Assembly: GCF_021401085.1 (NCBI RefSeq)
Contig: NZ_JACBFP010000005.1
Coordinates: forward strand, 1-64,000
From: Chryseobacterium sp. R2A-55
GTDB lineage: Bacteria; Bacteroidota; Bacteroidia; Flavobacteriales; Weeksellaceae
Length of the DNA stretch: 64,000 nucleotides
Direction: 5' to 3'
Positions 2,994 through 28,982 of this stretch are shown here, in pieces. The notes beneath the pieces are model-generated. The model did no database searches. It had not been told where the DNA came from and was given only the letters and a program-made list of their open reading frames with translations. The position numbers and the translations under genes were made by a program. Positions within the stretch are counted from its first letter, which is position 1; each line of letters begins with the position of its first letter.

Positions 2994-3179
2994 AGGATAC
3001 AAGAAAAACTTTACGCCTGTTCCCTATGTTTTTAAATAAAAGTAGAATGCTTAAATAATTTATTATTAAAACCCCACATCGACAGGTTTATTTAAGTAGG
3101 ATAAGAAATCTAATCTGAAAAATTTATTAATCTTTGGAAAAACATACTATATCTTATATAAATTTAGCTTATTAAGCTG

Positions 3180-14831: not shown

Positions 14832-15593
14832 CTATTTTTTCTTCAAACCCGCAATCTCGCTCTTCAATTCCAAAAACAGTTCCCGAAGGTTTTTCTGTTC
14901 AAACTCGTCGGGCTCATATTCTTTGGTGCTGATGCTGCAGGCAAACTCCCATATTTCCCTGATTTCGGTTAAAGGAATTTTCAGGGGTTCATAGAAGCTG
15001 TTGTCGGATTTGACGCAGATGAAATTTCCCTCGTGAAACTGAAACCTCTTGTAAACAATTCCATCATTGATGGTGATGAAGATATAGGTTTTATCGGTTT
15101 TCAGATCGGCAATATTTTCCACATATTCGCCCACGATGAAGGTTCCGTCTTTGTAAGGCGGCATGGAATCGCCACCTGCCGGAAATGCGCGAAACTTTCC
15201 GTTGCGCAAAAATGGCAGCGAAACCGTCTGCAGGCTTTCTATATATTCGGGGTCATTGTAGCCGTTCAAATAGCCCATTGATGCTTTTTCGGGGATGATT
15301 TCAATTTTGTTTTCGCCTTTGGAATCCACCACCACCGGAAGCAGGATTCTGTTTTCAGCAATTTGGAGCATATCGTCAACGGGGTATTTTCTGATATCCA
15401 CGCTCACCAACAGATCGATGCTGAGGTTAAAATATTTTGAAATCCGCATGAGCAACTCAATGGGTGGTTCCGAGGTTCCGTCTTCGTATTTCACGTACCG
15501 GCTTCTGGTAATAATTAAGTCGTCCGCAAGCTTTTGTTGGGATAAATTTCTTCTGGTTCTTAAAACCCTGATGTTATCTGAAAAAACTGACAT
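14832..15593 (-). CDS. XRE/S24 (CI/LexA-like) regulator of the mutagenesis cassette
   Basis: 253 residues from the ATG at 15593 (MSVFSDNIRVL); an upstream in-frame ATG would add 21 residues with no HTH homology, so it was rejected. An N-terminal XRE helix-turn-helix (about 7-60: RNLSQQKLADDLIITRSRYV) is joined to a C-terminal S24 peptidase domain with catalytic Ser143 (GGDSMPPY) and Lys182 (GIVYKRF). The expected self-cleavage site lies at KASMGYLNGY (about 103-112), where the usual Ala-Gly pair reads Met-Gly. Such proteins repress error-prone polymerase genes until RecA triggers self-cleavage. It diverges from dinB, its probable target. Confidence 0.82.
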   Translation of the reverse strand: MSVFSDNIRVLRTRRNLSQQKLADDLIITRSRYVKYEDGTSEPPIELLMRISKYFNLSIDLLVSVDIRKYPVDDMLQIAENRILLPVVVDSKGENKIEIIPEKASMGYLNGYNDPEYIESLQTVSLPFLRNGKFRAFPAGGDSMPPYKDGTFIVGEYVENIADLKTDKTYIFITINDGIVYKRFQFHEGNFICVKSDNSFYEPLKIPLTEIREIWEFACSISTKEYEPDEFEQKNLRELFLELKSEIAGLKKK

Positions 15594-15830
15594 TGTTATA
15601 AATTGGGACAACAAATTTAGGTAAATTGTTACAAATCTGCAATAGCTTTGCAGCAAGAAAATAGAGCGACTTCGTCGGGATTCCCCGTTTCTCGGAATGA
15701 CAACGAAATTTCAATGCTGATTGATGAAGAATCACAGAATTGGTCATTCACCATTCACTTTTAAAAGAAAATGGACAGCGAAGCGATGCACCCGAAGAAA
15801 TTAACCCTGCAGCGATTAAATCATTCTGTT

Positions 15831-15853
15831 GGACCAGTTGCGACCGGTCCCTA
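15831..15853 (-). repeat. REP-like palindromic repeat upstream of dinB
   Basis: On the minus strand it reads TAGGGACCGGTCGCAACTGG followed by TCC, nearly the same as the element at 17063-17085 downstream of dinB (first 14 bases identical). The core GGACCGGTCGC...GGTCC can fold on itself. It lies inside the spurious 5' extension of the dinB frame, one reason for choosing the later start. Confidence 0.55.
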
Positions 15854-15863
15854 TAAACCCCTC

Positions 15864-17000
15864 ATGAAACGCGCCATCGCACATATGGATCTGGACACCT
15901 TTTTCGTTTCCTGCGAAAGGGTGAAACATTCTGAGCTCATCGGGAAACCCATCATTATTGGTGGTGGGGACCGCGGTGTGGTGGCATCGTGTTCTTATGA
16001 GGCGCGGTTTTTCGGGGTGCGTTCCGCAATGCCGATGAAGATGGCATTAAGGCTTTGTCCCGATGCTAAAGTGATCCGCGGCGATATGGAGCTGTATTCC
16101 AAAATGTCTCAGGAAGTTACCGAAATCATCAGTGAAAAAGTTCCGGTTGTGGAGAAAGCGAGTGTGGATGAATTCTACCTGGACCTTTCCGGAATGGACC
16201 GGTTTTTCGGGTGTTATCAGTGGGCGACGGAAATTGCCGAATCGGTGACGAAGAATACGGGACTGCCGATTTCCTTCGCATTGTCCACCAACAAGACTGT
16301 TTCCAAAATCGGAACCGGCGAGTCCAAACCTGTGGGAAGACTTGAAATCCGCGAAAATTTGGTGAAACCGTTTCTCAATCCGCTTTCGATAAGGAAAATT
16401 CCGATGGTGGGAAATGTGACCTTTCAGCTGCTTTCCAGAATTGGAATCCGCAAAATCCAGACTTTATCTGAAATGCCGGTGGATCTTCTGCAGCAGCTCA
16501 TCGGGAAAAGCGGAACCGAACTCTGGAAAAAAGCCAATGGGATTGATGAAACTCCCGTGGTGCAATATTCTGAAAGAAAATCGATCTCCACCGAGACCAC
16601 GTTTTCGCAGGACAGCATCGATGTGGGCCACATGAAAAGTATTTTATCTAAAATGGTGGAGGAACTCTGCTTTCAGCTTCGGAAGGAGCAGTGGCTGACT
16701 TCTGTGGTGACGGTGAAAATCCGCTATGCGAATTTCGATACCGAAACCAAACAGGTGAAAATTCCCTACACTGCGGTAGATCACACGATTTCACGATACG
16801 TTCTGGAACTTTTCAAAAAGCTCTATACCCGAAGAATGCGGCTTCGGCTCATCGGGATCCGTTTTTCGGGCCTCGTCCACGGAAACCACCAGATGAACCT
16901 TTTCGAGGACACCGAGGAACTCATCAATCTTTACCAGGCGATGGACAGGATGAAGGTGCGGTTTGGGAAAAATGCGGTGGGAAGAGCGAGTGGGTTTTGA
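15864..17000 (+). CDS. dinB: Y-family DNA polymerase IV (DinB-like)
   Basis: 378 residues from ATG 15864 (MKRAIAHMDLDTFFVSCERV). The frame is open back to 15771, but those 31 codons cover a palindromic repeat and lack homology. Catalytic residues are intact: D9 in HMDLDTFF and D102-E103 in ASVDEFYLDLSG; the steric region ASCSYEARFFGVRSAMP is typical. The C-terminus carries a beta-clamp motif QMNLF followed by a helical tail. It performs translesion synthesis. In many Bacteroidota an S24 regulator, a DinB/UmuC-like polymerase and a DnaE2-like polymerase occur together as here, forming an SOS mutagenesis cassette. Confidence 0.9.
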   Translation: MKRAIAHMDLDTFFVSCERVKHSELIGKPIIIGGGDRGVVASCSYEARFFGVRSAMPMKMALRLCPDAKVIRGDMELYSKMSQEVTEIISEKVPVVEKASVDEFYLDLSGMDRFFGCYQWATEIAESVTKNTGLPISFALSTNKTVSKIGTGESKPVGRLEIRENLVKPFLNPLSIRKIPMVGNVTFQLLSRIGIRKIQTLSEMPVDLLQQLIGKSGTELWKKANGIDETPVVQYSERKSISTETTFSQDSIDVGHMKSILSKMVEELCFQLRKEQWLTSVVTVKIRYANFDTETKQVKIPYTAVDHTISRYVLELFKKLYTRRMRLRLIGIRFSGLVHGNHQMNLFEDTEELINLYQAMDRMKVRFGKNAVGRASGF

Positions 17001-17350
17001 TTCCGGCAGCTATCGGAGGAGTGGTGGAGCGGAGGGGGGAGTGGGAGTGTTGGAGTGGTTTGTAGGGACCGGTCGCGACCTGTTCAATAGATTGATTTTA
17101 AATGGTTTAACCGCTGAAATGTCAGTTTCTCTCAGTAAATCGCTTCGCTGTGCATTTTCAACAGAAGGGACTTTCCTCTGCTGTCTGTCGGCAGGCGGGA
17201 TTGGAGGGCCGGTTTCGATGCCGGTAGAAGACGGGGTGGTGAAAACCTAAACTTTAAACCGTTAAACAGCCTTAAACCATAAAAAACAACTTTAAACAAT
17301 TAAAACTTTTGCAGCCACCTGTATCCATTGCACCCTTTAAAATACACAAA
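17001..17350. other. Intergenic region between dinB and dnaE2
   Basis: Contains the second REP-like palindrome (17063-17085) and otherwise non-conserved sequence; open frames in it have no protein-like character. Promoter elements for dnaE2 may lie near 17270-17340, where the DNA becomes AT-rich, but no clear TAnnTTTG box is seen. Confidence 0.4.
17063..17085 (+). repeat. REP-like palindromic repeat downstream of dinB
   Basis: Starts TAGGGACCGGTCGCGACC; inverted copy of the element at 15831-15853. The core GGTCGCGACC is a perfect 10-base palindrome. Elements of this look recur between genes in many bacterial genomes; only two copies are visible in this window. Confidence 0.6.
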
Positions 17351-20300
17351 ATGAACTTCTCACACTCTTTTCACAGTCTCCGCTACGGAACCATCTCCAT
17401 TGATGATTTGGTGCTGCAAGCTGCGGATTTAGGGCTGAATGTTTTGGCTTTGACCGACATCAACACGGTTACCGGAATTTACGATTTCTACAAGCTCTGC
17501 AAAATCCATCAAATAAAACCGGTGGTCGGCGTGGACATCCGGGTGGAAAATGAGCCGTACTATATTGCTTTGGCCAAAAATCCTGAGGGAATTGCGGAAA
17601 TCAACCGTTTGCTTACGAGGTTTAACTGCGAGGATATTCCGCTTCCGAAACAGCATCCGGATTTTGAAAATGTTTTCGTGATTTATCCTTTGGGTAATGC
17701 TCCGGAAGTTTTGGCAGAAAACGAATTCCTCGGAATCCGGCCGGAAGAAACGACGGTCTTAATCCAAAAAAAATGGAAACTGCTTCTGCATAAAATGGTG
17801 GTTTTTCAGCCCGTCACTTTTAGGACCAAAAAAGAATACAATCTGCACCGGATTTTGCGGGCGATCGATAACAACACGCTGATTTCAAAACTGGAAGAAA
17901 AAGACGTCTGCCAAAAATCTGAGGTGATGAAGCCGGTTTTTGAACTTTTAAAGCCGTTTAAAAATTATCCGCAAATCATTGAAAATACCGAGAGAATCAT
18001 TGCCGGTTGCCATTTCGAGTTCGATTTTTCTACCCCGAAAAACAAAAAGCATTTCACCGGAACGAAGGAAGAGGACGAAGAACTGCTGCGCCAACTTGCG
18101 TATGAAGGCTTAAAGAAAAGGTATCCCGACGAAAACGAAGCGGCCAGAAAACGGGTGGAAAAAGAACTGAAGGTTATCTATGAACTGGATTTCTGCGGCT
18201 ATTTTCTCATTACCTGGGATATTGTGCAATACAGCAACAGCCGTGGTTTCATGCATGTGGGAAGGGGAAGCGGCGCTAATTCCATCGTGAGTTACTGTTT
18301 GGGAATCACGGATATTTGTCCGCTGGAGCTCGATCTTTATTTCGAGCGGTTTTTAAACTTAAACCGAAAATCACCACCGGATTTCGACATCGACTGGAGT
18401 TGGCAGAACCGTGACGATATTTTGCGCTATATCTTCGATCAATACGGAAAAGACCACGTGGCGTTTTGCGGAACGAATGTGGAATTCAAGTACCGCTCGA
18501 TTTTCCGGGAAGTGGGGAAAGCGTTTGGTCTTCCGAAAGAGGAACTGGACGATCTGGCGAAGAATCCGATGGCAGTTCACGATGATAATTCGGTGGTGAA
18601 ACTCGTGCAGAAATACGGAATGTTGCTTGAAAAATTCCCTAACCAGCGCAGCATGCACTCCTGCGGAATCCTGATTTCCGAGGAACCCCTTACTAATTAC
18701 ACCGCTCTGGAAATGCCGCCGAAAGGTTTCCCGATCATCCAGTTTGATATGAATGTGGCGGAAGATATCGGCTTTGAGAAATTCGACATCCTCTCTCAGC
18801 GCGGTTTGGGAACGATCAACGACACGGTAAAGCTCGTGGAGAAAAACCGGGGAATCACCGTTGATATCCGGGATACGTCGATTTCTAAGGACGAAGAAAA
18901 CTGCAACCGGTATTTGGCAAAAGGAAAAACACTGGGCTGTTTCTACATTGAAAGTCCGGCGATGCGGGGTTTGCTCCGCCGTTTGAAGTGTGACAATTAC
19001 AGGACTTTGGTGGCGGCTTCGTCGATTATCCGTCCCGGAGTGGCGCAAAGCGGAATGATGCGCGAATATATTTTCCGGCACAACCATCCGGACCAATTCG
19101 AGTATTTCCACCAAGTCTTTGAGGAGCAACTCGGTGAAACTTATGGCATCATGGTCTATCAGGAAGATGTAATAAAGATCGCGCTGCATTACGGCGGTGT
19201 TTCTGCCGATGACGGGGATATTTTGCGAAGGGCGATGAGCGGGAAAAGCCGTTCCATCCGGAAACTTCAGGAGGTGAAGGATCATTTTTTCGAATCCTGT
19301 GCGAAGCAGGGTCACCCGGAAAAGCTCTCAGCGGAAGTGTACCGGCAGATCGAGAGTTTTGCGGGATATTCTTTCTGCAAAGCCCATTCTGCGAGTTATG
19401 CTGTGGAAAGTTACCAGAGTCTGTACCTGAAAGTGTATTATCCGGTTGAGTTTATGGTTTCGGCCATTAACAACGGTGGCGGATTTTACCGCACAGAAGT
19501 TTATGTCCACGAATGCAGGATGGGTGGGGGAACGATCCATAATCCGTGTGTGAACCGAAGTCTGTTTGAAACCACCGTTTATGAGGATGATGTGTTTTTG
19601 GGTTTGATGCACCTCGAAAAACTGGAAAGCCGTCTTGCGCAGTTTATTCCCGAGGAAAGGGAAAAAAACGGCGACTTCACTTCGCTGGAAGATTTTGTCA
19701 GGCGGGTTCCGATTGGGGTTGAAATGTTGCAGACGCTGATTTTCGTGGGTGCATTCCGTTTTACGGGAAAACAGAAAAACGAGTTGCTGATCGAGGCGAG
19801 AATGTTGCTGATCCATTTTAAGCCGGAATACCGGAATCCTTCGTTTTTTGAGGAACCGCCGAAAAAATATGCGCTTCCGCAACTTAAGAGAAGCCCTTTC
19901 GAAGACGCTTTCGACGAGATTGAAATTCTGGGATTTCCGGTGAGCTGCAGTCCGTTTGATTTGCTGCAGACCCCATACCGGGGATCAGTGATGGCGAAAG
20001 ATTTAACGAAATACCATAAAAAGCAGGTAAAAATGTTGGCGTATCTGATTTCGCGAAAGCATGTGCCGACCAAAAAGGGCACCATGTATTTCGGGACCTG
20101 GATTGATGCGGAAGGCGAGTATTTCGACACGGCTCATTTCCCGGACAATCTGAAGCAGTATCCGTTTCAGGGGGGCGGCTGTTATTTGCTTTTGGGAACG
20201 GTGGAGGTTGATTTTCATTTTCCGACCCTCACCATTGTGAAAATGGCTAAAATACCATTCATTCCGGATCCGCGTTATTCTGAAGACCGGGAGAAAAAGT

Positions 20301-20401
20301 TTGAGATCCATCGTAAGATCAACGAGGATGTGAGCATGACGTGGCGGAAACCTTATCCGCAGGAGCATGAGATTGGTTTGCCCAGGAGGAGGATGGAGTG
20401 A
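17351..20401 (+). CDS. dnaE2: DnaE2-like error-prone DNA polymerase III alpha subunit
   Basis: 1016 residues from ATG 17351 (MNFSHSFHSLRYG); a TTG 42 bases upstream is a worse start. The order is an N-terminal PHP domain with changed metal ligands (FSHSFHSLRYG instead of the usual HVHSEYSLLDG), the C-family polymerase core with VGRGSGANSIVSYCLGITD and the catalytic Asp pair in PPDFDIDWSWQ near 355-365, the tail FCKAHSASYAVESYQSLYLK, then an OB-fold region. The length fits DnaE2 (about 1000-1080) rather than replicative DnaE (about 1160). It acts in mutagenic repair together with the DinB protein upstream. Its stop codon touches the tracrRNA terminator on the other strand. Confidence 0.88.
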   Translation: MNFSHSFHSLRYGTISIDDLVLQAADLGLNVLALTDINTVTGIYDFYKLCKIHQIKPVVGVDIRVENEPYYIALAKNPEGIAEINRLLTRFNCEDIPLPKQHPDFENVFVIYPLGNAPEVLAENEFLGIRPEETTVLIQKKWKLLLHKMVVFQPVTFRTKKEYNLHRILRAIDNNTLISKLEEKDVCQKSEVMKPVFELLKPFKNYPQIIENTERIIAGCHFEFDFSTPKNKKHFTGTKEEDEELLRQLAYEGLKKRYPDENEAARKRVEKELKVIYELDFCGYFLITWDIVQYSNSRGFMHVGRGSGANSIVSYCLGITDICPLELDLYFERFLNLNRKSPPDFDIDWSWQNRDDILRYIFDQYGKDHVAFCGTNVEFKYRSIFREVGKAFGLPKEELDDLAKNPMAVHDDNSVVKLVQKYGMLLEKFPNQRSMHSCGILISEEPLTNYTALEMPPKGFPIIQFDMNVAEDIGFEKFDILSQRGLGTINDTVKLVEKNRGITVDIRDTSISKDEENCNRYLAKGKTLGCFYIESPAMRGLLRRLKCDNYRTLVAASSIIRPGVAQSGMMREYIFRHNHPDQFEYFHQVFEEQLGETYGIMVYQEDVIKIALHYGGVSADDGDILRRAMSGKSRSIRKLQEVKDHFFESCAKQGHPEKLSAEVYRQIESFAGYSFCKAHSASYAVESYQSLYLKVYYPVEFMVSAINNGGGFYRTEVYVHECRMGGGTIHNPCVNRSLFETTVYEDDVFLGLMHLEKLESRLAQFIPEEREKNGDFTSLEDFVRRVPIGVEMLQTLIFVGAFRFTGKQKNELLIEARMLLIHFKPEYRNPSFFEEPPKKYALPQLKRSPFEDAFDEIEILGFPVSCSPFDLLQTPYRGSVMAKDLTKYHKKQVKMLAYLISRKHVPTKKGTMYFGTWIDAEGEYFDTAHFPDNLKQYPFQGGGCYLLLGTVEVDFHFPTLTIVKMAKIPFIPDPRYSEDREKKFEIHRKINEDVSMTWRKPYPQEHEIGLPRRRME

Positions 20402-20500
20402 AAAAAAGGCGAGTTGCCCCGCCTTAAATGTTTTCACAACGGAATAATCCTTATTGTGAATTGCTTTCAAAAAGTAAATATAGGATTAATTCTTTATATA
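20401..20500 (-). ncRNA. tracrRNA of the type II-C CRISPR system
   Basis: Read on the minus strand, bases 20472-20454 are complementary to the CRISPR repeat over 19 bases (+ strand TTGTGAATTGCTTTCAAAA). The RNA continues with the short nexus stem GGA-UUAU-UCC, a linker GUUGUGAAAACAUUU, and the hairpin AAGGCG-GGGCAACU-CGCCUU followed by seven Us ending at the dnaE2 stop codon. The size is about 100 bases if it starts near 20500. This is the layout of known Bacteroidota tracrRNAs. The opposite strand has no comparable terminator, so the direction is secure; the 5' end is predicted from the promoter. Confidence 0.88.
20406..20428 (-). terminator. Rho-independent terminator of tracrRNA
   Basis: A 6-base stem (AAGGCG/CGCCTT, extendable by one pair) is followed on the minus strand by seven Ts. 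On the plus strand it sits 4 bases after the dnaE2 stop and could also help end that transcript, though without a T-run there. Confidence 0.8.
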
Positions 20501-20505
20501 AATCT

Positions 20506-20537
20506 CAGATATAGTGTTAAATTTAGTTAAAACCAAA
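20506..20537 (-). promoter_or_regulatory. Promoter of tracrRNA
   Basis: On the minus strand TTTG (20537-20534), 20 bases, then TATATCTG (20513-20506): a Bacteroidota -33/-7 pair with one mismatch in the -7 box. It predicts a start near 20500, about 28 bases before the anti-repeat. Confidence 0.6.
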
Positions 20538-20583
20538 ATTTATTTTATAACCTTTAATATTATATCATACATTTGTTAGGTTA

Positions 20584-20609
20584 AATAAAATCGCCTAAGC
20601 GATTTTATT
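20584..20609. other. Perfect 11-base-pair hairpin directly before the tRNA-like sequence
   Basis: AATAAAATCGC, loop CTAA, GCGATTTTATT. The arm ends one base before the tRNA-like acceptor stem begins. The T-rich arm makes it a possible bidirectional terminator separating the tracrRNA promoter region from the rest of the interval; it could also be a processing signal. Confidence 0.5.
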
Positions 20610-20681
20610 GGGGGAGTGGTGTAATAGGTAGCACACGTGACTTATTCCCTCGCGGTGCGGGTTCAATTCCCGTCTCCTCCA
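20610..20681 (+). tRNA. tRNA-like sequence with an aberrant anticodon arm
   Basis: 72 bases folding as a tRNA: acceptor GGGGGAG/CTCCTCC (one G-U) plus discriminator A; D-arm GTGT...GCAC with loop AATAGGTA; T-arm GCGGG-TTCAATT-CCCGT. The anticodon arm is defective. In standard numbering, stem CGTGA/CCTCG has two mismatches and the loop CTTATTC gives TAT with a U at position 37, which true tRNAs avoid. An alternative perfect stem CGTGA/TCGCG gives a 9-base loop and a 2-base variable region. No CCA is encoded. It is either a decayed tRNA or a tRNA-like RNA with another role. A weak hairpin plus T7 at about 20685-20700 would end its transcript. Confidence 0.6.
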
Positions 20682-20704
20682 CTACAAAGATAATCTTTTT
20701 TTAT

Positions 20705-20751
20705 AACTAACCAAAGATATATGACTTAAAGGTTAGTTGTGAATTGCTTTC
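20705..20751 (+). ncRNA. Possible crRNA-like guide: spacer-like segment plus partial CRISPR repeat
   Basis: GTTGTGAATTGCTTTC (20736-20751) equals the first 16 bases of the repeat in crRNA sense, the part that pairs with tracrRNA; similarity stops after it. The preceding 31 bases would be the spacer. Their last 10 (TTAAAGGTTA, seed side) recur on the minus strand at 20557-20548 beside the tracrRNA promoter, followed there by TAAAATAAAT. The segment also forms a hairpin (AACTAACC at 20705-20712 with GGTTAGTT at 20731-20738). It may be only a degenerate anti-repeat or a leftover repeat; transcription is not shown. Confidence 0.35.
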
Positions 20752-20761
20752 TTTTTAATGA

Positions 20762-20789
20762 AACAGAGAGGTAGTAATATCTCTCTGTT
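20762..20789. other. Perfect 9-base-pair hairpin upstream of cas9
   Basis: AACAGAGAG, 10-base loop, CTCTCTGTT. There is no T-run directly behind it on either strand, so it is not an obvious terminator. It could be an operator palindrome or a structured part of the cas9 leader. Confidence 0.45.
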
Positions 20790-20803: not shown

Positions 20804-20821
20804 ATTACGGCTTTCCGTAAT
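20804..20821. other. Short hairpin in the cas9 leader
   Basis: ATTACGG, loop CTTT, CCGTAAT; 7 perfect pairs, ending 42 bases before the cas9 ATG. It may influence translation or be an operator. Confidence 0.4.
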
Positions 20822-20863: not shown

Positions 20864-23800
20864 ATGAAAACAATACTCGGTTTAGACCTTGGAACAAATT
20901 CGATTGGCTGGGCATTAATCAAACAAAATTTTGAAACGAAACAAGGCAGAATTCTTGGAATCGGAAGTAGGATAATTCCCATGACACAGGATGTGATGGA
21001 TAATTTTGGCTCAGGAACTCCGTCCAAAACACAAACTTCTGCAAGAACGGATTATCGAAGTGTGCGAAGATTACGAGAAAGAAATCTTCTGAGAAGAGAG
21101 CGTTTGCATAGACTATTAAATATTTTAGATTTTCTTCCCGATCATTACTCAAATAAAATTGATTTCGAAAATAGATTAGGCAAATTCCTACCTGGAACCG
21201 AACCTAAATTAGTTTATGATGATAATCATCAATTTATTTTTAAAAATTCTTTCGAAGAGATGCTCAAAGAATTTCAGAGAGAGCATCCAGAATTGCTTTC
21301 TAGCAGCAAGAAAATTCCTTATGACTGGACCATTTATTATTTAAGAAAAAAAGCACTTTCGCAAAAAATTCAAAAAGAAGAACTCGCATGGATTATTCTT
21401 AATTTTAATCAGAAGCGCGGCTATTACCAACTCCGCGGTGAAGAGGAAGAAGAAAATCCAAATAAACTTGTTGAGTTTTTCTCCTTAGAAATTGTTGATG
21501 TAATTGCTGATGAACAAAGAAAGGGTACTGATAAGATATGGTATAGTATTATTTTAGAAAATGGGTGGATTTACAGAAGAGAAAGTAAATACCCATTATT
21601 CGACTGGAAAAACAAAGTGCGTGACTTTATTGTAACTACTGATTTGAATGAAGATGGTAGTATAAAAACTGACAAAGAAGGCAAAGAGAAAAGAAGTTTC
21701 CGGGCACCAAATGAAGATGATTGGACATTGTTGAAGAAAAAAACAGAAAACGAAATTGATAATTCTCAAAAAACAGTTGGGGAATATATTTATGATGCAT
21801 TATTGGATAATCCTTCACAGAAAATTAAAGGTAAATTGGTAAGAACCATAGAGCGAAAATTCTATAAAGAAGAAATTACAAAGATTTTAAAAAAGCAAAC
21901 CGAGTTTCATGCTGAACTGAAAGAAAGGAATCTTTTAAATTCCTGTGTCGACGAACTGTACCCAAGGAATGAAGAACGGCAAAAGTTGCTGAAAACTAAA
22001 GATTTCGTTTACCTATTCATAGAGGATATTCTTTTTTATCAAAGACCACTCAAAAGTCAAAAACATAATATTGGCGATTGTAAATTAGAATACAGGGAAT
22101 ACGCGAAAAATGGGGTGAAAATAAAAGATCATTTAAAAACAATTTCCCGTTCTCACCCACTATTTCAGGAGTTCAGGATATGGCAGTGGATCCAGAATTT
22201 GAAAATTTATGATAAACTTTCTGATGAGGAGGTTACCTTTAACTTTTTATCATCTATAGATGATTATGACCAACTTTTTGATTTCTTGTGGAACAGAAAA
22301 GAAGTAGATCATAAAGCACTTTTAGAATATTTGATAAAAAGGAAATATGAAGATTTAAAGCCGAAGCAAATTTCTACAAAAGCCAAAGAGTACCGGTGGA
22401 ATTATGTTTACGACAGCGAGAAGGATGAATCTAAATTTTATCCAATGGGTGAAACGAATGCGATGATTAAGAACCGTTTGGAGAAAATTGAGCAATTGCC
22501 CGGTGAATTTTTGACTTCGGAAATTTTGGAAAAACTGTGGCACATCATCTATTCGGTAACTGATAAAATTGAATATGAAAAAGCACTCAACACGTTTGCA
22601 AAAAAAAATGATATTGATGCCGAACAATTTGTAGAGAACTTCAAAAAATTCCCACCCTTCAAAAGTGATTATTCTTCGTATTCTTTAAAAGCAATCAAAA
22701 AACTTCTGCCTCTGATGAGAATGGGAAAATATTGGAAAGAAGAAAATATTGATGCCGAAACCCAAAGAAGGTTGACATCTATAAAAGAGCGTATTGAAAG
22801 TATTAATTACGAAGAAAAGAAACTGCAAGAAATTTCGGACGATGACATTTTGAAGCCAGTTTTAAAAAGTTTTATGAAATTTAAAAATCGTTCATTCAAC
22901 CAGGGATTGAACACTTATCAGGCAAGTTATGCGGTTTATAATAAACACTCCGAAGGTGATGCAACGAAATGGAATTCGGTTGAAGATTTAGAAAAATATT
23001 TGGATGAATTTAAACAACATTCTTTGCGGAATCCAATTGTTGAACAGCTGGTCACCGAAACACTGCGTGTAGTACGTGATATTTGGAAGGATTATGGTAA
23101 TGGTGACAAAGATTTCTTTAATGAAATTCATATTGAACTGGGAAGGGATTTGAGAAATTCTGCAGATGAACGCAAGAGAATTTCGGCAAATCATACCAAG
23201 AATGAAAATACCAATTTAAGAATCAAACTTTTGCTCACGGAATTGTTGAATGAAGGCGTAGAAAATGTTCGCCCGTTTTCACCGATGCAACAGGAAATTC
23301 TGAAGATTTATGAAGAAGGCGCTTTAAGTTCTGAAACTGAAATTCCCGATGAAATTCTGAAAATATCTGTTACCGCACAACCTACGACTTCGCAGCTCCA
23401 ACGATATAAACTGTGGCTGGAACAGAAATATAAATCGCCATATACAGGGCAAATGATTCCTTTAAGTAAACTCTTCACAACAGAATATGAAATTGAACAT
23501 ATCATTCCGCAAAGTAGATTTTTTGACGATGGTTTTTCAAACAAAGTTATCTGTGAAAGTGCTGTAAATAAGCGGAAAGATAATCAGTTGGGTTTAGAGT
23601 TTATCAAGAATTGTGGTGGTGAAATAGTAGAATTAGATTTTGGTAAAAAAGTGCCGATTCTTAATGAAAATGATTATCGGGATTTCATCGACCTCCATTA
23701 TTCAAAAAACAGAGCAAAGAAAGCCAAATTACTTTTGGAAGAAGTTCCTGAAAAAATGATTGAAAGGCAATTAAATGATACCCGCTATATCAGCAAATTG

Positions 23801-25285
23801 GTGATGCAACTGTTATCCAATATTGTAAGAAGTGAAGATGGAAAAGATGATGGTGTAAATTCCAAAAATGTATTACCGGTAACTGGAAAAATAACCTCTG
23901 AACTAAAAAATGACTGGGGTTTAAATGATATTTGGAATGATTTGATTTTACCGCGGTTTATCAGGTTAAACGAAATGACGAACTCAAATGATTTTACAAC
24001 TTATAACGAAAAGTATCAGAAAGTTTTGCCAACAGTACCACTGCATTTGGAAAAAGGTTTTCAGAAAAAAAGAATAGATCACCGCCACCATTCTCTGGAT
24101 GCTTTGGTTATTGCCTGCACCACCAGAAATCATATCAATTATCTCAATAATCAAAGTGCTCTAGACGATAGTTACAAAAAGAAATTTTATACGCAAGAAG
24201 AGTACAGGGAAAAATTTCAGAAAGCAAGGGAAGACTTAAGGAGGGATTTATGTGATAAAAATTTCAATTCTGATAATCCTAAAAATTATAAATGGACATT
24301 CAAGAAACCTTGGCAAAATTTCACCAAAGATGCAAAAGACAGGTTAGAAACAACAATTATCAGTTTCAAGCAAAACCAAAGAATTATCAACAAGACTGTA
24401 AATTATTATCAAAAGTATAATGATGAAGGTAAAAAGGTCTTTGTAAAGCAAACAAAGGGTGATAATTGGGCTATACGAAAATCGTTACACAAAGAAACCG
24501 TATCTGCAAAAGTTGATTTACCAAGAATTAAAGTTCCAAGAGGCAAAATTCTTACAGCAACACGGAAATTGATAGATATATCATTTACTTTAAAAACAAT
24601 TGAGAGTATAACCGATACCGGCATTCAGAAGATTCTCAAAAATTATTTAGAATATAAAGAATACAATTCTGAGTTAGCATTCTCACCGGAAGGTATTGAA
24701 GAAATGAACCAAAATATTGAGAAATATAATGATGGAGTAGCACATAAACCAATTTTCAAAGTAAGAATTTTTGAAACAGGCAGTAAATTTCCCTTGGGTG
24801 AAACGGGGAATAAGACCGAAAAATATGTAGAAGCCGCAAAAGGAACGAACTTATTTTTTGGAATTTATATAGATGAGGAGGGCAAAAGAGTTTTCGATAC
24901 GATTGCTTTTAACATTGTTGTGGAACGCTTAAAACAAGGATTGAGTGCAGTTCCTGAAACAAACGAGAAAGGCAATGATCTTCTATATTCATTATCACCA
25001 CAAGACTTGGTGTATGTTCCAACTGAAGAGGAAAGAGTTAATACTGCATTAGTGAACTTTGAAGATTTGACTAAAGAGCAAATTAGCAGGATTTACAAAA
25101 TGGTGAGTTCTTCGGGAACTCAATGCTTTTTTGTGAAATCAGAAGTGGCAAGCTCTATTGCTAATAAGTTTGAATTTACTTCTTTAAATAAGATGGAAAA
25201 TACTATTGATGGTAAGCAAGTGAAATCCATATGTTGGAAATTAGAAACTACTCGTCTAGGAAGAATCATTAAAGTTATAAGGTAA
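20864..25285 (+). CDS. cas9: Cas9 endonuclease, type II-C
   Basis: 1473 residues, in the size range of Bacteroidota II-C Cas9. RuvC-I is KTILGLDLGTNSIGWAL (D8); the arginine-rich bridge helix is DYRSVRRLRERNLLRRERL; RuvC-II has E758 in NEIHIELGRD; HNH has EIEHIIPQSRFFDDGFSNKV with H879 and a following N-K-R region; RuvC-III is DHRHHSLDAL with H1076 and D1079. All catalytic residues are present, so a cutting enzyme is expected. The final 350 residues form the wedge/PAM-interacting part. Its stop overlaps the cas1 start by one base (TAATG). No csn2 or cas4 is present, hence subtype II-C. Confidence 0.97.
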   Translation: MKTILGLDLGTNSIGWALIKQNFETKQGRILGIGSRIIPMTQDVMDNFGSGTPSKTQTSARTDYRSVRRLRERNLLRRERLHRLLNILDFLPDHYSNKIDFENRLGKFLPGTEPKLVYDDNHQFIFKNSFEEMLKEFQREHPELLSSSKKIPYDWTIYYLRKKALSQKIQKEELAWIILNFNQKRGYYQLRGEEEEENPNKLVEFFSLEIVDVIADEQRKGTDKIWYSIILENGWIYRRESKYPLFDWKNKVRDFIVTTDLNEDGSIKTDKEGKEKRSFRAPNEDDWTLLKKKTENEIDNSQKTVGEYIYDALLDNPSQKIKGKLVRTIERKFYKEEITKILKKQTEFHAELKERNLLNSCVDELYPRNEERQKLLKTKDFVYLFIEDILFYQRPLKSQKHNIGDCKLEYREYAKNGVKIKDHLKTISRSHPLFQEFRIWQWIQNLKIYDKLSDEEVTFNFLSSIDDYDQLFDFLWNRKEVDHKALLEYLIKRKYEDLKPKQISTKAKEYRWNYVYDSEKDESKFYPMGETNAMIKNRLEKIEQLPGEFLTSEILEKLWHIIYSVTDKIEYEKALNTFAKKNDIDAEQFVENFKKFPPFKSDYSSYSLKAIKKLLPLMRMGKYWKEENIDAETQRRLTSIKERIESINYEEKKLQEISDDDILKPVLKSFMKFKNRSFNQGLNTYQASYAVYNKHSEGDATKWNSVEDLEKYLDEFKQHSLRNPIVEQLVTETLRVVRDIWKDYGNGDKDFFNEIHIELGRDLRNSADERKRISANHTKNENTNLRIKLLLTELLNEGVENVRPFSPMQQEILKIYEEGALSSETEIPDEILKISVTAQPTTSQLQRYKLWLEQKYKSPYTGQMIPLSKLFTTEYEIEHIIPQSRFFDDGFSNKVICESAVNKRKDNQLGLEFIKNCGGEIVELDFGKKVPILNENDYRDFIDLHYSKNRAKKAKLLLEEVPEKMIERQLNDTRYISKLVMQLLSNIVRSEDGKDDGVNSKNVLPVTGKITSELKNDWGLNDIWNDLILPRFIRLNEMTNSNDFTTYNEKYQKVLPTVPLHLEKGFQKKRIDHRHHSLDALVIACTTRNHINYLNNQSALDDSYKKKFYTQEEYREKFQKAREDLRRDLCDKNFNSDNPKNYKWTFKKPWQNFTKDAKDRLETTIISFKQNQRIINKTVNYYQKYNDEGKKVFVKQTKGDNWAIRKSLHKETVSAKVDLPRIKVPRGKILTATRKLIDISFTLKTIESITDTGIQKILKNYLEYKEYNSELAFSPEGIEEMNQNIEKYNDGVAHKPIFKVRIFETGSKFPLGETGNKTEKYVEAAKGTNLFFGIYIDEEGKRVFDTIAFNIVVERLKQGLSAVPETNEKGNDLLYSLSPQDLVYVPTEEERVNTALVNFEDLTKEQISRIYKMVSSSGTQCFFVKSEVASSIANKFEFTSLNKMENTIDGKQVKSICWKLETTRLGRIIKVIR

Positions 25286-26178
25286 TGCTCTTCCGTTCCA
25301 TCTACATCGGCAATCCCGCCTATCTGAAACTGAAAGACAACCAAATGTATATTTTGGAGCCGGAGACCAATGAAGTGAAGGGAAAGGTTCCGGTAGAAGA
25401 TTTGGGCTTACTGATGCTCGATCATTTTCAAATAACGATTTCGCATCAGCTGATCCAAAAAATGATGGGGAATAATGTGGTGGTCATCAGTTGCGATGCT
25501 TTCCATCTTCCACACGGAATCATGCTTCCCATGTTTGGACACACTGAGCATTCGCAGCGTTTGAAGGACCAGCTGGAAGCAAGTGAACCTTTGAAGAAGC
25601 AGCTTTGGAAACAGACGGTGGAGTGTAAGATTGAAAATCAGAAAGAAGTACTGATCCGGCTCGGAAATTATTATGAACCGATGAACGAATATCTGCGAAA
25701 TGTGAAAAGCGGCGACAGTACCAATATGGAGGGAATCGCAGCGCAACATTACTGGAAGTACCTGATTTCATTGGATTTCCTGCGTGAACGTTTTGGGGAA
25801 TCGCCCAACCAGTTTTTCAATTTCGGATATTCAGTTTTGCGGAGCATTGTCGCCAGATCTTTGGTGGAGACTGGATTGCTTCCTGTTTTGGGGATTTTCC
25901 ACAAGAATAAATACAATCCCTATTGTTTGGCGGATGACCTCATGGAACCCTACCGTCCATTTGTTGATTTTATGGTGATGGAATGGCTGAAAGTTTATCC
26001 GGAATCTGAAGAATTGACCAGGGAATTTAAGGCCTATGTTTTACAGATTGCCACAAAGGATCTGAAAATAGATGGATTGACAAGACCCTTGATGGTGGCG
26101 GTGAAAGCCACGGCCAGTTCACTTTATAAATGTTATACCGGCGAAAAGAGACTGCTCTCTTATCCCGAATTTATATAA
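25285..26178 (+). CDS. cas1: Cas1 integrase, type II
   Basis: 297 residues. The type II Cas1 start MLFRSIYIGNPAYLKLKDNQ and the block NMEGIAAQHYWKYL with the catalytic Glu are visible, as are the later metal-site His (VLGIFHKNKYNPYCLADDLM) and Asp/Glu region (MEPYRPFVDFMVMEW). It inserts new spacers together with Cas2. Translationally coupled to cas9 by a one-base overlap; cas2 follows after 35 bases. Confidence 0.95.
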   Translation: MLFRSIYIGNPAYLKLKDNQMYILEPETNEVKGKVPVEDLGLLMLDHFQITISHQLIQKMMGNNVVVISCDAFHLPHGIMLPMFGHTEHSQRLKDQLEASEPLKKQLWKQTVECKIENQKEVLIRLGNYYEPMNEYLRNVKSGDSTNMEGIAAQHYWKYLISLDFLRERFGESPNQFFNFGYSVLRSIVARSLVETGLLPVLGIFHKNKYNPYCLADDLMEPYRPFVDFMVMEWLKVYPESEELTREFKAYVLQIATKDLKIDGLTRPLMVAVKATASSLYKCYTGEKRLLSYPEFI

Positions 26179-26210: not shown

Positions 26211-26552
<342 letters not shown>

Positions 26553-26710: not shown

Positions 26711-28982
26711 GTTGTGTCGTGTCACGAAGTTAATAAATTTTGAAAGCAATTCACAACTTAAATCACTATACATCCTGCTCTGTTTGTTGTTGTGTCGTGT
26801 CACGAAGTTAATAAATTTTGAAAGCAATTCACAACAGCAAAAGCATCCCCTGAAATGTCACACAGGTTGTGTCGTGTCACGAAGTTAATAAATTTTGAAA
26901 GCAATTCACAACTGGCAGGGGGAGTGCAGGGATCTAGCCTAGCGTTGTGTCGTGTCACGAAGTTAATAAATTTTGAAAGCAATTCACAACAGAGGACAGC
27001 TATGTGATCCTCTATCATTTGTTGTGTCGTGTCACGAAGTTAATAAATTTTGAAAGCAATTCACAACCACTCTCTCTAGCCTGAGTGGGTAGAGATTGTT
27101 GTGTCGTGTCACGAAGTTAATAAATTTTGAAAGCAATTCACAACTATGACAAAAAAGACAAAAAAGTCTATTTTGTTGTGTCGTGTCACGAAGTTAATAA
27201 ATTTTGAAAGCAATTCACAACAGCTATGCACAGCTTTGACATATTGCAGGAGTTGTGTCGTGTCACGAAGTTAATAAATTTTGAAAGCAATTCACAACAG
27301 ATTGATTGTTGTTTCCATTTTAGTTCGAGTTGTGTCGTGTCACGAAGTTAATAAATTTTGAAAGCAATTCACAACTGTCTGCCGTATGTCCACGAAACTT
27401 GTCCGGTTGTGTCGTGTCACGAAGTTAATAAATTTTGAAAGCAATTCACAACTTATCCTTACACACCAAATGGAGCAAATTCGTTGTGTCGTGTCACGAA
27501 GTTAATAAATTTTGAAAGCAATTCACAACAAGTTTTTGTTCTGAAATCGACCCGTCAAAGTTGTGTCGTGTCACGAAGTTAATAAATTTTGAAAGCAATT
27601 CACAACCAAGGGACGGTCGTAACCATTCAAATTTGGGTTGTGTCGTGTCACGAAGTTAATAAATTTTGAAAGCAATTCACAACTTTACTTTAACCCCACA
27701 AATTTGCGTTTGTGTTGTGTCGTGTCACGAAGTTAATAAATTTTGAAAGCAATTCACAACTTATTGCTGAAGGTGCAGAACTGCCTAATTGTTGTGTCGT
27801 GTCACGAAGTTAATAAATTTTGAAAGCAATTCACAACACTGTCAATTGATTCCAAGTCTAAATTTAAGTTGTGTCGTGTCACGAAGTTAATAAATTTTGA
27901 AAGCAATTCACAACTAGATCGAGGAAGGAAACTTGGAATATTCTGTTGTGTCGTGTCACGAAGTTAATAAATTTTGAAAGCAATTCACAACAAGATCGCC
28001 TGTGCTGTCCGATGACATGCAGTTGTGTCGTGTCACGAAGTTAATAAATTTTGAAAGCAATTCACAACTGCGGCACACACAGAAGCTGAAAAAAGAGAGT
28101 TGTGTCGTGTCACGAAGTTAATAAATTTTGAAAGCAATTCACAACAGCAGTTAGAATTTAATATCAAATCAAATTGTTGTGTCGTGTCACGAAGTTAATA
28201 AATTTTGAAAGCAATTCACAACTCCTCCTTTCTGCTTTGTCAATTCATCTTCGTTGTGTCGTGTCACGAAGTTAATAAATTTTGAAAGCAATTCACAACT
28301 ATTGATTCAATAAACAACAGTTAACAGAAGTTGTGTCGTGTCACGAAGTTAATAAATTTTGAAAGCAATTCACAACCCTGCTAAAATCGGGCGGTTACTG
28401 GTTGTGGTTGTGTCGTGTCACGAAGTTAATAAATTTTGAAAGCAATTCACAACTTCAATTTGCTTCAGATGAAAATCCTTCGAGTTGTGTCGTGTCACGA
28501 AGTTAATAAATTTTGAAAGCAATTCACAACGGAAGCTTGGGAGGTAACATCTCCCTGGATGTTGTGTCGTGTCACGAAGTTAATAAATTTTGAAAGCAAT
28601 TCACAACGCCGACGGATTAGAAATAGACAAAACTAAGGTTGTGTCGTGTCACGAAGTTAATAAATTTTGAAAGCAATTCACAACCATAAAATGCAGGTTT
28701 ATGCGCCGAACAAGGTTGTGTCGTGTCACGAAGTTAATAAATTTTGAAAGCAATTCACAACTGAATTGAAAAAATCAAAAAATCAAGTTTCGTTGTGTCG
28801 TGTCACGAAGTTAATAAATTTTGAAAGCAATTCACAACGAAGCAGATTACGAGGAGTTGAAAGCTAAAGTTGTGTCGTGTCACGAAGTTAATAAATTTTG
28901 AAAGCAATTCACAACCTGAAAGCAATTCGTTAATCATGATCATCAGTTGTGTCGTGTCACGAAGTTAATAAATTTTGAAAGC
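26711..28982 (-). CRISPR. CRISPR array, 29 full repeats plus one truncated, 29 spacers
   Basis: The repeat is 47 bases. On the plus strand it begins GTTGTGTCGTGTCACG and ends GAAAGCAATTCACAAC, with inverted ends GTTGTG/CACAAC. The first repeat is at 26711-26757; the 29th full one is at 28869-28915. The 30th (28946-28982) keeps 37 bases and then diverges. All full repeats are identical as far as I can see. Spacers are 30 bases, except the first and third, which are 31. The tracrRNA anti-repeat has the same sense as the plus-strand repeat, so crRNAs come from the minus strand. The truncated repeat marks the old end, so new spacers probably enter next to cas2. Confidence 0.97.

Follow-up and report, generated by a model that had tools for sequence, protein, structure and literature searches.

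The window, by which we mean the entire stretch of 64,000 nucleotides that was analysed, holds a CRISPR locus with an effector set made of cas9, cas1 and cas2 only; csn2 and cas4 are absent, and the layout is therefore that of type II-C, not II-A. Its tracrRNA module lies upstream of cas9, as it does in 92 related loci. The features of the locus are the following:

20400..20468, minus strand: tracrRNA (anti-repeat 20468-20453, nexus and terminator; GAAAGCAATTCACAAT and AAGGATTATTCCGTTGTG...GGCGGGGCAACTCGCCTTTTTTT)
20475..20482, minus strand: likely tracrRNA -7 box TATATTTA, identified by homology, a 5/6 form of TAnnTTTG
20506..20537, minus strand: alternative tracrRNA promoter, with TTTG at 20537-20534, N20, then TATATCTG at 20513-20506
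20538..20547, minus strand: PAM-like flank of the target, TAAAATAAAT, of the form NNAAAT
20548..20557, minus strand: seed target TTAAAGGTTA, within a 20-nt protospacer, 20548-20567
20568..20575, plus strand: promoter -7 box TACATTTG for the tRNA-like/guide transcript, a perfect TAnnTTTG that abuts the protospacer
20584..20609, plus strand: 10-bp hairpin AATAAAATCG/CGATTTTATT before the tRNA-like RNA (same stem, different loop in the related locus L007)
20610..20682, plus strand: tRNA-like RNA whose anticodon stem is poorly paired (Rfam RF00005, 52.6 bits; Asn(att) according to ARAGORN)
20716..20735, plus strand: putative guide, its seed TTAAAGGTTA (20726-20735) immediately 5′ of the repeat half
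20736..20751, plus strand: repeat half GTTGTGAATTGCTTTC, identical to bases 1-16 of the 47-base array repeat
20762..20789, plus strand: 12-bp hairpin 3′ of the repeat half, terminator-like, with no U-tract
20804..20821, plus strand: palindrome ATTACGGCTTTCCGTAAT in the cas9 promoter region, with similar palindromes in many relatives
20864..25285, plus strand: cas9 (TIGR01865, 423 bits; type II-C layout)
25285..26178, plus strand: cas1 (TIGR03639)
26214..26552, plus strand: cas2 (TIGR01573)
26711..28915, minus strand: CRISPR array of 47-nt repeats and 30-31-nt spacers, the crRNA strand being the minus strand

Directly before the CRISPR locus (14832-20401) stand genes for an XRE-type repressor, a DNA polymerase IV-like protein and a DnaE-type polymerase, in an arrangement reminiscent of a mutagenesis cassette. 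The palindrome of the form ACGG-N4-CCGT that precedes cas9 at 20804-20821, as it does in many related loci, is a possible operator of a protein regulator.

An earlier note on this DNA had placed a 16-base copy of the repeat at 20736-20751 of the plus strand, preceded by TTAAAGGTTA at 20726-20735, and had found the same ten bases again at 20557-20548 of the minus strand, with TAAAATAAAT on their 3′ side; the coordinates of the first are exact and the second is confirmed. Cofolding predicts a 16-bp duplex between the repeat half and the anti-repeat of the tracrRNA. Taken as a mere word, the seed occurs three times in the whole window, with 0.31 copies expected from shuffles; when an adjoining NNAAA is demanded, pattern searches of the genome retrieve it three times, against three for the reversed control, and its significance must therefore be sought in its position here, not in its rarity. 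Because the repeat boundary fixes the end of the guide, the match could be compared with those at all other positions of the tracrRNA-cas9 interval, the 3′ end being held at the boundary and an NN[A/G]AA flank being required. In the window, a match as long with such a flank is obtained at 1 of 712 positions, that of the guide itself, while the corresponding counts among relatives are 1/762 for L049, 1/882 for L076, 5/816 for L035 and 7/946 for G207. The hairpin downstream of the half being devoid of a U-tract, the 3′ end of the RNA is uncertain and read-through into cas9 is possible. Upstream, the tRNA-like gene (20610-20682), of which the earlier note makes no mention, sits between the seed target and the guide. 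The half had also to be considered as the start of a second tracrRNA, read on the minus strand (20751-20736); this was ruled out, as no nexus follows.

How the arrangement varies was followed in 104 tracrRNA-cas9 intervals of related type II-C loci, the genus sample for the window's genome comprising 36 genomes, including Chryseobacterium sp. 39-10. Most of these intervals are simple, with the anti-repeat about 60-156 bases before cas9 and nothing between. In nine, a repeat half is added between tracrRNA and cas9, a feature absent from the others: the window, G207 (L007/L112), L035, L044, L049, L054, L056, L076 and G062 (L247/L260). We may separate them into two types. Type A comprises seven loci (L035, L044, L049, L054, L056, L076 and G062), where the guide RNA is directed away from cas9, on the tracrRNA strand; type B comprises the window and G207, where it points towards cas9 and is preceded by a hairpin and a tRNA-like RNA. 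The earlier note had asked whether seed and target co-vary among relatives, and this is what we find: the pairs differ between loci and stay matched within each locus. The best partner of the guide in its own locus extends over 9-12 bases in eight loci and over 11 of 12, with one mismatch, in L056. Seed and target are GTGCAGAGTTA/GTGCAGAGTTA in L049; L044, L054 and L076 have the word GTACAGAGTTA in common, and the words are ATCAGGTATCT in L035, GGTAAATCA in G207, TTAAAGGTTA in the window and AGTTGATAACT in G062. When every guide is set against every locus, none finds a better match than in its own, ties being confined to loci with one and the same seed; the other loci mostly yield 4-8 bases, apart from this one-seed group and from the 9 bases that the window guide matches in G207. 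The half in L044, L049 and L054 has the same base changes as the tracrRNA of its own locus, and the array repeat is without them. Directly 3′ of the half, a strong hairpin is present in seven of the eight loci tested, with sequences that differ, followed by a U-tract in six; in type A this terminator-like hairpin is missing from L056 only. Among the facts that count against the guide reading are the state of L056, which combines its seed mismatch with two mismatches in the half and the absence of a terminator, and the splitting of the G207 locus over two contigs. Among the other intervals, L103 (G299) displays, 250-430 bases before cas9, a duplicated tracrRNA with a second copy truncated in the anti-repeat.

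Promoters of Bacteroidota have the consensus TAnnTTTG at -7, and their -33 elements are weak at these loci. In all nine loci the target lies a short way upstream of the -7 box that would serve the guide RNA itself, the PAM being on the side remote from that box. The seven type A targets overlap, in addition, the -7 or -33 element of the divergent cas9 promoter; that of the window lies at the promoter of the guide transcript only, and not demonstrably at a cas promoter. The earlier note had proposed an autoregulatory guide acting on the tracrRNA promoter. The crRNA-like guide, the seed-length match and the PAM-flanked promoter site have stood; the tracrRNA promoter as the regulated target has not, since the feature that remains constant in nine loci is the guide RNA's own -7 box. 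That proposal had arguments, as the PAM stands next to TTTG, the -33 element of TTTG-N20-TATATCTG, a plausible promoter of the minus strand that Cas9 bound at 20538-20567 could cover. This -33 box, ten bases from the target, had been ascribed to tracrRNA; it belongs to the alternative promoter, and homology favours TATATTTA. Relatives have their -7 box 0-15 nt before the anti-repeat (a perfect TAnnTTTG is present at most 40 nt upstream of it in 66 of 92 loci), that is, at 20482-20475 here, about 65 bp from the window's target, and 'tracrRNA promoter' is therefore a weak description of the latter. Furthermore, the target of G207 is over 200 bp from tracrRNA, and that of type A stands at the opposite end of the interval, beside cas9. 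We thus see the regulation of the tracrRNA promoter as an unlikely account of these sites. A further good promoter match, TTTG-N19-TATCTTTG, is found on the minus strand at 20684-20692; it is directed antisense into the tRNA-like gene, and its -7 box is kept in L007.

As for the flank of the targets, NNAAAT adjoins the seed at 10 of 10 target sites in the eight loci with related Cas9 proteins, with a background of 172/6916 (2.5%). In G062 the flank is AAAACG, unlike NNAAAT, and the match itself lies within a near-palindrome, 16 of 652 pseudo-guides doing as well; this locus therefore weighs less on the question of the PAM. The PAM of the Flavobacterium columnare II-C system is reportedly NNNNNTAAA, and the earlier note had stressed that the flank satisfies it. 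The agreement holds for the window, and for L076, but not for the other loci; the window's flank fits NNAAAT as well, and this is the form that relatives have in common. NNAAAT is similar to NNAAAG, the PAM of the Fp2Cas9 of F. psychrophilum (PMC10309648, PMC12609912). The GWATTN reported for Riemerella anatipestifer was discarded as a guide to the present one, because it stands on the opposite side of the protospacer and is not transferable (PMC6008519). The spacers themselves gave little: the window's array had no protospacer in phages, its spacers none in 321 family genomes, and the two spacers tried on viral contigs none there; those of the type A relatives yielded no usable PAM in the family genomes, and the sole protospacer seen for a relative (L044) has the flank GAAGAA, in a tolerated self-target. 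The natural targets predict, for this group of Cas9 proteins, a PAM NNAAAT and a minimal non-cutting match of 9-12 bases. An array spacer of L044, TCGAACCGCTGTAGATGGTGTTGCAGACC, matches a tRNA-like sequence that almost every family genome contains; its flank is A[C/T]TGCC and not NNAAAT.

We can now try to understand how such a locus would operate. What may be established from the letters themselves, namely the anatomy, the co-varying pairs, the constant flank, the promoter position, the conserved RNA structure and the pairing of half with tracrRNA, is in keeping with the following scenario. A plus-strand transcript initiated at the TACATTTG promoter would comprise the hairpin, the tRNA-like RNA, the guide ending in TTAAAGGTTA and the half that pairs with tracrRNA. 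Loaded on Cas9, this guide would bind the PAM-flanked site 20557-20548 via its 10-base seed, and the resulting R-loop would lie over the DNA that precedes the -7 box of the transcript's own promoter, blocking transcription; judging from the known behaviour of Cas9, the block would be achieved without cutting, because matching stops after ten bases. The guide RNA would repress its own promoter, and thereby limit its own supply; in type A, where the divergent cas9 promoter is overlapped as well, repression would extend to cas9 itself, and it is possible that the complex bound in the window represses cas9 or tracrRNA as well. That a natural guide RNA bound to Cas9 acts at its own promoter is, in our opinion, likely. 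Since related bacteria possess it too, with guide-target pairs that differ, self-restraint by a guide RNA of their own is probable for some type II-C Cas9 systems.

Devices of this family are not without precedent. In the type II-A system of Streptococcus pyogenes, tracr-L is a natural RNA that guides Cas9, through a short match, to a PAM-flanked promoter of its own locus, which is repressed without cutting (PMC11417352). The present loci would work in a similar way, and eight of them have a seed with a PAM-like flank; yet the guide is not a tracr-L, because it is not part of tracrRNA: tracr-L is a long tracrRNA isoform in II-A, whereas here, in II-C, the putative guide would come from a gene apart, with a promoter and, in most loci, a terminator of its own, and would pair with tracrRNA in trans. 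In the window the half is on the strand opposite to tracrRNA, and in type A a terminator hairpin separates the guide from it. As to the target, tracr-L acts on the cas promoter; here the cas9 promoter is overlapped in type A, and the site of the window lies at the promoter of the guide transcript only. CreR RNAs, in types I-B, I-E and V-A, are crRNA-like; they contain part of a repeat and are complementary to a cas promoter over a limited length (PMC13131331, PMC12737573). The degenerate repeat/spacer unit outside the array that characterizes them is present in the nine loci as repeat half and guide; complementarity to a cas promoter is found, by position, in type A, the window having its own guide promoter as target. 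In contrast to CreR, the effector is here Cas9 with tracrRNA, the repeat is halved, the leader is structured at the 5′ side and the target is always the guide's own promoter. The scaRNA of Francisella (II-B) and Neisseria (II-C) is likewise a CRISPR-associated small RNA beside type II genes, but that of N. meningitidis acts on the efeUOB mRNA, and no seed matching a promoter is described for it (PMC13431127). Natural guide-based autorepression is thus already described for types I, II-A and V-A, while the control of Cas9 in type II-C is largely open; we found no report of natural-guide autoregulation for II-C in the literature, preprints and most subscription journals set apart, and the present case is apparently the first of the tracr-L/CreR kind in that type. 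Should the interpretation hold, a separate guide gene for Cas9 is present in no fewer than nine species, its seed and target changing together, and II-C autoregulation becomes therefore directly testable by swapping ten bases. The window version adds a possible natural tRNA-guide fusion.

The RNA located in front of the guide deserves attention in its own right. The counterpart of the tRNA-like RNA in L007 scores 51.9 bits with Rfam and is called Phe(gaa). Both RNAs keep acceptor and T arms without a constant anticodon, and acceptor pairs 5 and 6 show a compensating swap (GC/AU vs AU/GC). An ordinary tRNA gene at 20610-20682 was considered and rejected, as the anticodon differs (Asn att vs Phe gaa) and each RNA has two non-standard pairs in the anticodon stem. 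The tRNA-like RNA may be a processing signal for the guide, or else the regulated product. In L035, L044, L049, L054, L056, L076 and L247, the leader is a structured RNA with a CCAA loop and with loops of UGACGA and GGUCCAA-like sequence that are invariant; it is duplicated in L044 and L054. This type A leader folds into three hairpins and has no match in Rfam; at 14 of its 18 pairs both partners differ in one sequence or more. A covariance model built from six loci and run over 237 genomes matched at cas9 loci only, four of them known and one new, G062. The Cas9 of G062 is more distant and was missing from the protein-search listing, while its locus has the expected anatomy: tracrRNA, guide, repeat half, terminator, and a match of 11 bases lying 53-63 bases upstream of cas9.

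The distribution of these cassettes is patchy. They are scattered over the Cas9 tree, eight changes being required for the eight loci of the main Cas9 group, and two filled/empty pairs are available, L035 with its near-identical sister L065, and L076 with L079; both locate an insertion at the cas9 start, the former promoter and start codon being preserved to the left, with some 310-375 new bases in front of the present start. Taken together, scatter and pairs suggest that the regulation was gained through insertion of a ready-made module. Across 318 genomes, the type A cassette was restricted to cas9 loci; it was not found in phages or plasmids, nor was type B in plasmids. One may go further and imagine a movable Cas9-dependent cassette, repeatedly inserted at the cas9 start in Weeksellaceae, with its guide behind a structured leader and a self-targeted two-way promoter; the leader, tRNA-like in the window and there perhaps cut by RNase P/Z so as to free the guide, may do harm once released, and the cassette would then be the first CreTA-type addiction module to rely on Cas9. 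We regard this as quite unlikely. Its core, a guide that keeps a harmful leader RNA (the tRNA-like one in the window) off as long as Cas9 is present, draws on the position of the target, at the promoter of the tRNA-like RNA, on the arms conserved in that RNA, and on the scatter of the cassettes. It also draws on CreTA, where a crRNA-like guide with partial complementarity represses the promoter of a small, structured and toxic RNA inside the cas locus (PMC12737573). CreTA is known, however, for Cascade, not Cas9, and the toxicity of the present RNA is hypothetical; the guide lies downstream of the RNA to be repressed and is apparently co-transcribed with it, and the overlap of the type A site with the cas9 promoter is explained by autoregulation. 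An addiction or toxin module therefore appears improbable.

A similarly low credence is what we would grant to the view that the ten-base copies are sites for a protein regulator and the half a leftover of a duplicated anti-repeat. Both copies do lie in imperfect inverted repeats (AACTAACC...GGTTAGTT and TAACCT...AGGTTA), and the type B half occupies the place of the anti-repeat in normal loci (-128 vs about -126), before the ACGG/CCGT palindrome; this place argues for a duplicated anti-repeat as a likely origin of the type B half. Yet in every locus the match stops precisely where the repeat begins, a limit that a protein site has no reason to respect; NNAAAT adjoins the second copy, and the common word differs between loci. 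The RNA could instead be a decoy that occupies tracrRNA or Cas9, the DNA match being secondary: the half pairs fully with the anti-repeat, and phages use solitary repeats as RNA anti-CRISPRs (PMC10651486). These Racr RNAs share with ours a solitary repeat-like sequence, but they are encoded by phages and inhibitory, while the RNA considered here belongs to the cas locus of the host and has a matched target; a decoy would leave the matched seed and the constant flank without purpose, and we hold it to be very improbable. As for a chance match beside a relic repeat, to which the AT-rich DNA and the chance-level frequency of seed plus NNAAA elsewhere in the genome would lend themselves, it is hardly credible in the face of nine loci with matched yet different pairs, a constant flank and a constant promoter position.

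Phage sequences were scrutinized on their own account. A Racr or solitary phage repeat was set aside as an identity for the cassettes, type A being absent from the phages and plasmids searched, and type B from the plasmids. Phage-borne guides aimed at cas9 promoters were likewise rejected, the solitary repeats of viral contigs and Riemerella phages giving matches of at most 10 bases, the chance level, to the 104 upstream regions. Mini-CRISPR arrays do exist in Riemerella phages (L115 590-657 in RAP44, L116 604-804 in CRP19, and nine similar phage records), with one to three full repeats close to this II-C family and 30-nt spacers, placed between two genes and beside a dinD-like gene. In the viral contig IMGVR_UViG_3300028832_000607 (L214), a solitary repeat half at 3088-3103 of the minus strand is followed by a terminator-like hairpin, and may represent a phage guide or an anti-CRISPR RNA.
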